DNA of 64,000 bases from contig NZ_LUKF01000003.1 in assembly GCF_001592755.1 (NCBI RefSeq), positions 62,001 through 126,000 on the forward strand, given 5' to 3'. Shown piece after piece: positions 1,435 through 26,890 of this stretch. This DNA comes from Bdellovibrio bacteriovorus (lineage in GTDB: Bacteria; Bdellovibrionota; Bdellovibrionia; Bdellovibrionales; Bdellovibrionaceae). Position 1 is the stretch's first letter. Each line of letters opens with the position of its first letter. The notes beneath the pieces are model-generated. The model was not told the origin of the DNA. It searched no databases and saw nothing but the letters and a program-made list of their open reading frames with translations. A program made the position numbers and the translations under genes.

Positions 1435-2100
1435 ATGGGAGTCATGGAAAACCACACCCCCACAATTCTAGACGAAAAAAAATGGTTTCAGCTTTTCAGC
1501 AATAAAGCGCGTGTCTTATATCCACCGACAGACCCAGCCCACGATTATTTGCATATCATGCGTGTCGTGAACACAGCGAAGAATCTTTGTTTGCACGAAA
1601 AAGCGGATTGGAATGTGGTTTTACCGGCAGCTTTTTTTCACGACTACATCAACGTACCCAAAGGGGATCCCCGTCGTCCCTATGCCTCTCAGCTTTCAGC
1701 GGAAGCGGCCATAGAGTACTTAAAGTCCGTCGGCTATCCAGAGCAGTACTACGAAGCCATTCGCCACGCGATCGAAGCCCATAGCTATAGTGCGAACATC
1801 AAAGCGACGACATTAGAGGCTCAGATTGTTCAGGATGCAGATAGGTTGGATAGTTTAGGCGCTATTGGCATTGCCAGATGCTTTGCTACTTCGACCATGA
1901 TGAGCCGACCGTTTTATGCAGAGGAAGATCCGTGGGCGCAATCCCGCAGCTTAGATGACAAAAGCTACGGTATTGATCACTTCTTTCAAAAGCTTTTCAA
2001 ATTAGTAGATCACTTGAACACGCCGACGGCAAAAAAAGAAGGCGAACATCGTATCGCCTTCATCAAAACTTACTTGGAACAAATTAAAAGGGAAATTTAG
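1435..2100 (+). CDS. HD-domain phosphohydrolase
   Basis: A 221-residue HD-superfamily protein. Metal ligands are recognisable: His36 in AHDYLH, the paired His69-Asp70 in FFHDYINV, and the distal Asp in QDADRLDSLG near residue 132. This pattern fits the YedJ-like group of small metal-dependent phosphohydrolases; the substrate is unknown. An alternative start lies three codons downstream (ATG at 1444). The gene converges on the MarR gene with only 15 nt between stops. Confidence 0.87.
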   Translation: MGVMENHTPTILDEKKWFQLFSNKARVLYPPTDPAHDYLHIMRVVNTAKNLCLHEKADWNVVLPAAFFHDYINVPKGDPRRPYASQLSAEAAIEYLKSVGYPEQYYEAIRHAIEAHSYSANIKATTLEAQIVQDADRLDSLGAIGIARCFATSTMMSRPFYAEEDPWAQSRSLDDKSYGIDHFFQKLFKLVDHLNTPTAKKEGEHRIAFIKTYLEQIKREI

Positions 2101-24639: not shown

Positions 24640-26754
24640 TTAAAGTGCGGCTTGCAAACTGAACCAGAAAGTTCTTGCCTGACCTGGATATAAATACAAG
24701 TGTCCGTACTGTTCAGGTGATTCCTTCCAGTAACGTGTATCAAGCACGTTATCGACAGAAACACGCCATTGAGTTTTCACGCCGCCCCAAGCCCCAGCGT
24801 AAGAAGCCCCTACATCCCAGCGAGTCCATGCTGGCAGCGTCACTGCATTGTCAGCTGTCACCGCGCGCGCACCTTCCTGCACAAGACGCGTGCTAAGTGT
24901 CAGGCCTTTGACGTCAGAGATTAAGTACGAGGCTTGCGCCCGTAAAGTATGACTAGGAACATTGATCGGATTTTTGTCGTTAAGGCTGCTTGCGACTGTC
25001 GCATCTTTGCGACGGGCTTTAAGAGCCATAGCACTTCCTTCAAAATGCCATCTTGAAAAACGGTATTCACCACCGAACTCCACTCCTTGATGTTCTGCGG
25101 TTCCGTCCACTTGATACAAAGGTTTTTGATCTAAAATCAAGGGACGATCAATGTGAAAGGCCGTAATAAACCAAGTGTTTTCTTCAGTACCGCGAAGTCC
25201 GACTTCGTACTGATGACTGATCACATCTGGAACATATTCACCGGCGTGTGTGTAATCGACTTTATTCGGAGTCACGAAAGACTCAACACCTTGAGCGACG
25301 CTGGCATAGGTTAAGAACTTTTCAAAATCATACGAAAGCGCAAACCACGGCAAAGTAAAGGCTTGATCGTGAGAAACCGCACGACTGCCATCCGTGCGAA
25401 TGCTTTCGCGCTTCATCATGCTGTGACGCAATCCCAGCCATAGGTTCCAGCTTTGATATTTAAGATTATCAAAAACAAAAACATCGGTCGTTGTTGAATC
25501 ACGGTTCGTACCTTCATCTGTTAAGGCCGGATTTTCTGGAAGCTGAGCTGTCCCTGCGACGTTCCCAACACCCACATAGTTGTAAGCTTGCTTTTGCACG
25601 CGGGTTTGTTGCTGGGCGGTCATGACGCCCACACTGAGTTTGTGAGTGAGCACGGCCGTTTTCAAAACACCATCGAAGGACACTTTGCCAGAATAAGTCG
25701 CACGTTTTTCATCGTCGCTGCGAAAGTCGTAAAGATCGTAAGTTCCATCAGAACAATAGCGATCGTAATTATTTTCCGCAGAACATCCGTACGGATAAGC
25801 CAATCGATCATCCGTGGTGAGATTTTGGAATCCGGCAACGACTTGAAGATTCCAAGACGAACTTAAATTGTGTTTTAAACCAGCACTTCCCGTCACCCCT
25901 TCAAAAACAACGGGCTGAGTCCAAGCTTGGTTGTTCAAATTCAGTCGCGGATTGACCGGGTCTGGAAGTTTATTTCCTAAAAGACTGAATCCCGCCTGAC
26001 TGGGTTGAGAGCGGCGAGACCACTCTAGCTCTGTCTGTAAAAGAGTCGCCGAAGACCTATTCCAATCACCAGCAAAAGAAACCAAAGAGCGACTGCCCTC
26101 CGCATTTTTTAATTCCGGAGCGAGATTTTCTTGAGCCAAGTTCAAGCGATAACCAAATTCGGGAGCAGACTCGACCCTGCCACCCACATCCGCCGCCGTT
26201 AAAAAACTTCCCTGTTCGCCGACTTGCATCTTCACTTCACGCAGATCTTTGATCGTAGGTCTTTTCACCTTGTAGTTTACAACACCACCGGGGCTTGACA
26301 CTCCCACCTGGGCGCCGCTCAAGCCTTTTAAGACATCGATTTGTTCTTTATTATCCAAAGCGATAAAAGTCTCGGCATTGATGGGTAAATTTTCACGTAA
26401 ATAACTGGTGCAATTATCTAAAGTAAATCCGCGAACGGAAAGAGCATCCCAGTATCCCGCGGCATTGTAAGAATCAGACGCCGAAGCGTCTAAAATGGTG
26501 ATGTCTGAAAGTTTTTGAATATTGTTTTCTTCTAATTTCTTAGACGAAAGAATACGCAACGACGCTGGAAGCTCTTTGACGGAAACATCAAAGAAGCCAC
26601 TGACTTCCGTATCCGTGTCTTGACTGTCTGAAATCGTGACGGAAGAAAGTGCAGACTCTTGGACTGTGGTCGTCGTTACTTCGTCGGCAAATGAGTTTGT
26701 GGAAAAATGGAGCGTCAGAAAACTGGCGAATGCCAGCATAGATATCTTATTCAT
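24640..26754 (-). CDS. TonB-dependent outer-membrane receptor, TPP-riboswitch controlled
   Basis: A 704-residue TonB-dependent receptor with a signal peptide (about residues 1-23) and a plug domain (ELPASLRILSSKKLEENNIQ through GGVVNYKVKR, residues 60-180). A beta-barrel ends in aromatic strand YPGQARTFWFSLQAAL. The ATG sits a few bases after a full TPP riboswitch, so expression should fall when thiamine pyrophosphate is plentiful. By this control, and because TonB receptors import large or scarce nutrients, the likely substrate is thiamine or a thiamine precursor. Siderophore receptor similarity of the plug would mislead without the riboswitch. Confidence 0.9.
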   Translation of the reverse strand: MNKISMLAFASFLTLHFSTNSFADEVTTTTVQESALSSVTISDSQDTDTEVSGFFDVSVKELPASLRILSSKKLEENNIQKLSDITILDASASDSYNAAGYWDALSVRGFTLDNCTSYLRENLPINAETFIALDNKEQIDVLKGLSGAQVGVSSPGGVVNYKVKRPTIKDLREVKMQVGEQGSFLTAADVGGRVESAPEFGYRLNLAQENLAPELKNAEGSRSLVSFAGDWNRSSATLLQTELEWSRRSQPSQAGFSLLGNKLPDPVNPRLNLNNQAWTQPVVFEGVTGSAGLKHNLSSSWNLQVVAGFQNLTTDDRLAYPYGCSAENNYDRYCSDGTYDLYDFRSDDEKRATYSGKVSFDGVLKTAVLTHKLSVGVMTAQQQTRVQKQAYNYVGVGNVAGTAQLPENPALTDEGTNRDSTTTDVFVFDNLKYQSWNLWLGLRHSMMKRESIRTDGSRAVSHDQAFTLPWFALSYDFEKFLTYASVAQGVESFVTPNKVDYTHAGEYVPDVISHQYEVGLRGTEENTWFITAFHIDRPLILDQKPLYQVDGTAEHQGVEFGGEYRFSRWHFEGSAMALKARRKDATVASSLNDKNPINVPSHTLRAQASYLISDVKGLTLSTRLVQEGARAVTADNAVTLPAWTRWDVGASYAGAWGGVKTQWRVSVDNVLDTRYWKESPEQYGHLYLYPGQARTFWFSLQAAL

Positions 26755-26756
26755 AA

Positions 26757-26850
26757 CCTTCCCTGCGCGAGTATTATCTCTATCAGGTTCAAAGGGTCAT
26801 TCTCAGCCAGCAACCCCCATGGTCACTAGCACCCCTAGTTGCCTGGCAAC
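26757..26850 (-). promoter_or_regulatory. TPP (THI-box) riboswitch
   Basis: On the minus strand the conserved THI-element runs GGGGTGCT, then GGCTGAGA, ACCCTTTGAACCTGAT and TAATACTCGCGCAGGGAAGG. These are the universal helix-junction sequences of TPP aptamers. The 3' GGGAAGG is also the receptor's ribosome binding site, 3-4 nt before its ATG. The 5' arm AACT can pair with GGTT beside it (P1), and upstream a GTTGCC-A-GGCAAC hairpin (26838-26850) competes for the same arm, suggesting translational control by masking the ribosome site. Confidence 0.93.
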
Positions 26851-26890
26851 TTCGCGCAGAACGGGTTCTTTAGTCAAATAAAAAATATCC

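Follow-up and report, generated by a model that had tools for sequence, protein, structure and literature searches.

A TPP riboswitch in Bdellovibrio bacteriovorus probably represses translation of a TonB-dependent outer-membrane importer of thiamine or thiamine phosphate, a reading to which we give a probability of about 80%. The aptamer, the receptor family, the linkage of the two across the genus, the position of the Shine-Dalgarno (SD) sequence and the gene content were computed. The arrangement is of a known kind (omr1/OMthi), ordinary and well supported. What sets this case apart is a TPP regulon of a single gene in a predator without recognised thiamine synthesis, and a set of orthologous leaders which carry the same aptamer and appear to mask the ribosome site in two modes.

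The window, the whole stretch of 64,000 nucleotides that was analysed, contains one Rfam match over threshold, a full-length TPP riboswitch (RF00059) on the minus strand (26846..26742, model positions 1–105, E 2.1e-10), scoring 64.6 bits against a gathering score of 54.3 bits. The earlier note had described a complete THI-element directly before a TonB-dependent receptor and had named RF00059 as the check. The match bears this out and overlaps the receptor start, since the 704-codon open reading frame (26754..24640, minus strand) begins within it. No other TPP riboswitch was found in the host genome, an assembly of 3.66 Mb in 20 contigs. At its 3′ end the aptamer has the sequence AGGGA-AGGTT-ATG, thus the ribosome site lies within the element, as had been claimed: AGGGA (26760..26764, minus strand), formed by P4/junction nucleotides, is also the SD, 5 nt ahead of the receptor ATG, which itself falls inside the RF00059 match.

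Comparison of 33 leaders, that of the window and 32 homologous sequences, indicates strong conservation of the aptamer (26742..26846). The core nucleotides are invariant or nearly so, 96.7% of the cells at paired positions are paired, and both sides have changed in 14 of the 24 pairs. The covariation was 0.363, against 0.124 for shuffled data, and 0 of 500 shuffles were as high; the underlying leader alignment (A2) excludes L086, L088 and L094. P1 is short, with three pairs counted and 89.9% of cells paired. In the covariance-model alignment the 5′ arm of P1 is CAACT (26837..26841, minus strand), and P1 of the window is shifted by one.

The gene behind the riboswitch (24640..26754, minus strand) encodes a protein of 704 residues with a signal-peptide-like and TonB-box-like N-terminus. 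By eye, some N-termini contain segments that resemble a TonB box, for example LSSVTISD. Residues 59–158 (26281..26580, minus strand) match the Plug domain at 2.1e-8, and the protein scores 253.7 bits against TIGR01783 (TonB-siderophor, cut-off 223.5), membership of which denotes a sequence subfamily and is no proof of substrate. In the PDB, its sequence matches FemA, FhuA and further siderophore receptors. A model generated from 16 orthologues (mean pLDDT 77.2) has FemA, BauA and FhuA as its best fold matches (TM 0.77–0.83 over the first ranks, 18–20% identity), and the Plug match together with this FhuA/FemA fold agrees with the plug plus 22-strand barrel expected of a TonB-dependent receptor. 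Thus, the Plug, TIGR01783, fold and RF00059 matches establish that the element and the TonB receptor gene described earlier are both real. The receptor shares the TIGR01783 family and the fold of FemA, BauA and FhuA, but differs from them in its distant sequence, in the TPP riboswitch on its gene and in a loop signature of its own.

This loop, GCSAENNYDRYCSDGTYDLYDFRSDDE, contains two cysteines and spans residues 323–349 (25708..25788, minus strand). In the model it connects barrel strands as a long loop, and is putatively extracellular, judging the side from the strand order of the model. The consensus, approximately GC..E..[YF]..DR[YF]C[SA]DG.[YF]D.YD[YF]RS, is found in most of the 36 members of the receptor clade, while G156 and a few others deviate. 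DR[YF]C is found in most of the TPP-linked receptors and in 0 of 8 outgroup receptors; the plasmid relatives at 29–31% identity share most of D[YF]D.YD[FY]RS and lack DR[YF]C. The loop is a candidate substrate site, and the Burkholderiales-Bdellovibrio receptor clade is a place in which to seek thiamine substrate residues.

The promoter-like hexamers lie on the minus strand with the aptamer and the gene. TTGAC is placed 39–43 nt ahead of TAGGGG in 18 of 19 genus leaders, and in most of them CATAA- follows, by eye, 17 nt past TTGAC. The −35-like hexamer of the window, TTGACT (26872..26877), is followed after 17 nt by CGAAGT at the −10 position (26849..26854), a poor match common to G005 and G011, such that the geometry of this predicted promoter is conserved and its sequence is weak. 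The conserved geometry predicts a transcription start near 26844–26842, and AGTTG (26851–26847) therefore falls outside the predicted transcript. AGTTG is able to pair with the P1 5′ arm CAACT (26841–26837), and together they form the palindrome AGTTGCCAGGCAACT (26837..26851, minus strand), which the earlier note had read as an upstream hairpin that swaps with P1. The complementary arms do exist, but among the 19 genus leaders this arm pair is confined to two, those of the window and G005, and the palindrome probably lies before the transcription start, overlapping the promoter rather than forming RNA. We therefore rejected the hairpin as a general anti-P1 mechanism.

We searched 66 genomes of the family, 24 of them in the genus, for TPP riboswitches, using strict filters by which weak matches may be lost. 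Exactly one was found in 19 of the 24 genus genomes, and one in 4 of the 42 others. As at the window, each of the 19 genus riboswitches has the same TonB-dependent receptor directly behind it, in the manner of omr1 and OMthi. The receptor is present in 20 of 24 genus genomes. The exception, G020, carries it approximately 20 bp behind an HflX-like gene, and its locus (L069) has zero RF00059 match; G013, G016, G019 and G024 have neither riboswitch nor receptor. Riboswitch and receptor co-occur with a Fisher p of 4.7e-4, uncorrected for the kinship of these 24 related genomes. The neighbouring genes vary by species, and no conserved operon partner was seen across the 19 genus neighbourhoods (open reading frame starts, by eye). 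At this locus, 2 kb of genus genome G009 match B. bacteriovorus strain kdesi without a difference, which identifies the genus as Bdellovibrio. Across 368 genomes of the phylum, the receptor was detected at E 1e-100 or better in 23, namely 20 Bdellovibrio and three of one other genus. All three receptors of this second Bdellovibrionota genus are preceded by a TPP match; the scores are 66.8, 61.6 and 49.1 bits, of which the third falls short of gathering.

Elsewhere in the family, TPP riboswitches of a related genus, g17 (L042, L043, L044), and of G038 (L045) stand ahead of salvage genes and not of the receptor. From their motifs, we take these to be a thiM-thiE-thiL-thiD-cytX-like set, a YkoE-like ECF operon, or thiM. 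A divergent TPK-like gene accompanies the YkoE-like operon, and TPK profile matches there are weak. At L109, a cobalamin riboswitch match (2021–2086, minus strand, 35.6 bits) lies close upstream of the TPP riboswitch and on the opposite strand.

The genus leaders fall into two kinds. The distance from AGGRA to the receptor ATG is 5–6 nt in 9 of 19, including the window, and 47–83 nt in the other 10, whose start codons were picked by signal peptide. In the short group, the SD is the P4/junction strand of the aptamer, leaving no separate platform. In the spaced group, the SD is predicted to become more open when the 3′ strand of the aptamer is freed, by a mean of 0.28 against 0.08 with shuffled spacers, and 0 of 150 shuffled sets reached the mean seen. 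G021 and G023 show zero predicted change in SD access, and the changes for G004, G006 and G010, taken singly, are not outstanding. The spacers of G009, G022 and G025 carry a CTTCCCT-like copy, complementary both to AGGGAAG of the aptamer and to the SD. The E. coli thiM type is a translational TPP riboswitch with a sequestering hairpin. The 10 spaced leaders resemble this type in that the aptamer 3′ strand is predicted to compete for a segment which could otherwise mask the SD, clearly in about half of them, whereas in the window and 8 other leaders the AGGGA of the aptamer is itself the SD.

Both kinds are seen beyond the genus. In the second Bdellovibrionota genus, all three leaders are short (5, 7 and 9 nt), and the 13 Burkholderiales leaders listed, a set without L088, L079 and L080, have spacings of 62–99 nt. 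ACCTGCC, complementary to GCAGG of the aptamer, is found, by a count by eye, in 10 of these 13 leaders, and also in Bdellovibrio G003, G006 and G008. By a hand count in which an open fork was resolved for the fewest changes, the tree topology would require at least four changes between short and long leaders. In two spaced leaders, L031 (G023) and L036 (G004), an ATG 8 and 7 nt, respectively, past the AGGGA of the aptamer opens a short upstream reading frame, that of G023 being MVLP-stop, ahead of the receptor start; these may encode leader peptides or represent stages of a transition.

When the window RNA was folded freely from its predicted start, both SD and AUG were paired to AUGACC, close to P2; AUGACC and GGUUAU are both present, by eye, in G000, G005 and G011. 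Since the SD and AUG are masked in this folding even without the aptamer fold, the off/on direction is unreadable from energy alone. We infer that TPP is the off signal by analogy with the riboswitch family.

The gene content of the genus is consistent with a need for the vitamin. Profile searches of the 24 genus genomes gave no ThiC, no ThiE over the cut-off (one weak match) and no thiamine pyrophosphokinase (TPK), whereas the same profiles matched in 13, 11 and 7, respectively, of 14 named control genomes; a very divergent enzyme could escape such searches. Thus, the genus is without recognised thiamine synthesis. No ThiK was found over the cut-off in the 24 genomes, so that the first step in using plain thiamine has no recognised enzyme. 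The best ThiK candidate of the host genome was rejected because the APH(6)-type phosphotransferase family gives it a better score. ThiL is over the cut-off in 20 of 24 genomes and is missing from G007, G013, G016 and G024, three of which also lack the receptor (receptor-ThiL Fisher p 0.0076, uncorrected for kinship). G007 has the riboswitch and receptor, with none of ThiL, ThiC, ThiE and TPK over the cut-off, and would therefore need ready-made TPP or an unrecognised kinase. A ThiB-subfamily protein is over the cut-off in all 24 genomes. In the host genome, this protein has the thiamine-binding protein 2qry as its top PDB match (2.9e-52). Behind its gene lie those for a permease, whose best family is ThiP, and an ABC ATPase; the three proteins score under the ThiB, ThiP and ThiQ equivalog cut-offs. 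We rejected PnuT as the inner-membrane partner because PnuC/PnuT was found in 0 of 24 genomes.

The genus-wide linkage, the missing ThiC, ThiE and TPK, the ThiBPQ-like transporter with its ThiB-type protein and the presence of ThiL make uptake of thiamine or thiamine phosphate the best reading of the receptor, and the suggestion in the earlier note of thiamine import across the outer membrane is strengthened accordingly. In the mechanism that we infer, which extends to ligand binding, switch direction, substrate and inner-membrane route, low TPP would leave the 3′ strand of the aptamer, AGGGA, which is the SD in this species, open and the receptor would be made. The vitamin would pass the outer membrane using TonB energy, the ThiB-like binding protein and ABC transporter would carry it over the inner membrane, and ThiL would phosphorylate TMP to TPP. 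Ample TPP would then close P1 and P4 and so cover the ribosome site. As ThiL is the sole recognised thiamine-pathway kinase, TMP (or TPP) would be the cargo of use to the cell, which, if ThiL is indeed the only kinase, is a sharper prediction than thiamine. The vitamin is probably taken from outside or from prey. A published Bdellovibrio metabolic model has an incomplete thiamine pathway (PMC7529429), a gap that the proposed importer would fill with a concrete route to vitamin B1 for a bacterial predator.

Against the thiamine reading count the siderophore-receptor score and fold, and the receptors of G020 and of two Variovorax loci, which lack the riboswitch. The former could signify a ferric-siderophore receptor that merely follows TPP status, with TIGR01783 over the cut-off and FemA, BauA and FhuA as the best folds; family alone cannot predict the substrate of a TonB-dependent receptor. 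Such a role is nonetheless very improbable, given that the TPP riboswitch is linked to the receptor in three lineages, that DR[YF]C is specific to the clade and absent from the outgroup, and that zero iron genes were recognised alongside in the 19 genus neighbourhoods (reading frame starts by eye). The receptors without a riboswitch would fit an element that is a relic beside a constitutive receptor, as would the small shift of the Bacteroides OMthi transcript with thiamine in passages of PMC5613172. We consider a relic very improbable too, since in 33 leaders the core is near-invariant and the aptamer pairs covary strongly, the spacing of SD and ATG is fixed in 9 of 19 and that of the promoter is kept in 18 of 19.

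Import of a precursor (HMP or thiazole) or of a thiamine breakdown product is about as doubtful as a relic. The switch of the related genus, heading what by their motifs are thiM-thiE-thiL-thiD-cytX-like and YkoE-like genes, would agree with such a cargo, as would TPP riboswitches that control precursor uptake, described in parts of PMC3766115. However, ThiE, which joins the precursors, is over the cut-off in none of the 24 genus genomes, and ThiC is equally absent.

The TonB receptors linked to TPP riboswitches and named omr1 were reportedly described by Rodionov in 2002. The nearest counterpart in its arrangement is OMthi (BT2390) of Bacteroides thetaiotaomicron, likewise a TonB-dependent outer-membrane transporter whose gene is preceded by a TPP riboswitch, for which passages of PMC5613172 give growth phenotypes and genetic evidence for thiamine uptake. 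This likeness is one of arrangement. Unlike Bdellovibrio, with one switch on one gene, a ThiBPQ-like system and no PnuC/PnuT, Bacteroides has in that account a full thi biosynthesis operon and PnuT under TPP riboswitches. Excerpts from metagenome and marine MAG studies place omr/omr1 receptors near TPP riboswitches (PMC2211319, PMC10881298), and one from PMC12442306 concerns omr1 expression. The Bdellovibrio receptor resembles omr1 in its position and in the predicted B1 uptake; in PMC2211319 omr is called a BtuB homologue, whereas the Bdellovibrio receptor is FhuA/FemA-like. Thiamin-predicted TonB-dependent transporters fall into several clusters in parts of PMC2771747 and PMC3400609, one beside siderophore receptors, thus a siderophore-like thiamin transporter is not unheard of. 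A Bdellovibrio transcriptome study discusses a c-di-GMP riboswitch, with neither TPP nor thiamin in its main text (PMC3627812), and in a paper on delta-proteobacterial regulons Bdellovibrio receives a single mention, as part of the background (PMC545781). The matches listed, from literature outside subscription, included no paper on the receptor in Bdellovibrio.

The nearest relatives of the Bdellovibrio receptor are in Burkholderiales, at 40–50% identity. When genome contigs were scanned for close relatives, 17 loci were found, one from Bdellovibrio and 16 betaproteobacterial (among them Variovorax, Ramlibacter, Polaromonas, Aquabacterium, Rubrivivax, Ideonella, Caldimonas and Leptothrix), nearly all of which we take to belong to Burkholderiales. 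A TPP riboswitch over gathering lies upstream of 13 of the 17, including that of Bdellovibrio, and two further loci have matches below gathering (52.8 and 36.3 bits); both Variovorax loci have the receptor without any TPP riboswitch match. Burkholderia and Ralstonia, which parts of a TPP-regulon survey describe as without TPP-controlled transporters (PMC3766115), are not among the genera found here.

We calculated a tree of 44 receptors, 36 of the clade and 8 outgroups, the latter being relatives at about 29–31% identity from plasmids, with a TPP riboswitch in 0 of 4 loci. L081 (in-frame stop), L094 and L109 (partial) were left out of the tree, and L081 and L094 out of the protein alignment. 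The clade receptors group together against the outgroups with support of 95/96, and the 20 Bdellovibrio and two other Bdellovibrionota receptors form one group (99/100). In this tree, which carries a long-branch warning, the Bdellovibrionota group lies inside the Burkholderiales rows, with support of 92/93 and 89/88 at the two enclosing forks, and 1% of the bootstrap trees separate Burkholderiales from all other rows by a single branch. The riboswitch and receptor likely moved together from a Burkholderiales donor, which is the simplest reading, not a proven one. More tentatively, and with the odds rather against it, the acquired unit may import TMP/TPP released by prey, the leader having shrunk in part of the genus to little more than the aptamer, such that TPP and the ribosome would compete for the same nucleotides, with the platform changed at least four times.

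Most of the betaproteobacterial loci (L078–L093) have a tRNA gene within approximately 250 bp past the receptor, possibly an integration or hotspot context. In the Polaromonas MAG locus (L081, 2950–5142), an in-frame stop codon interrupts the receptor gene early in the plug, which may reflect either a pseudogene or a fault of assembly. Finally, an Acinetobacter lwoffii plasmid (NZ_CP072551.1; L113, 1387–4168) carries a 29%-identical TonB receptor, annotated as a siderophore receptor and without a TPP riboswitch, flanked by an APH/homoserine-kinase-like phosphotransferase and a PnuC-family transporter; this is perhaps another vitamin receptor.
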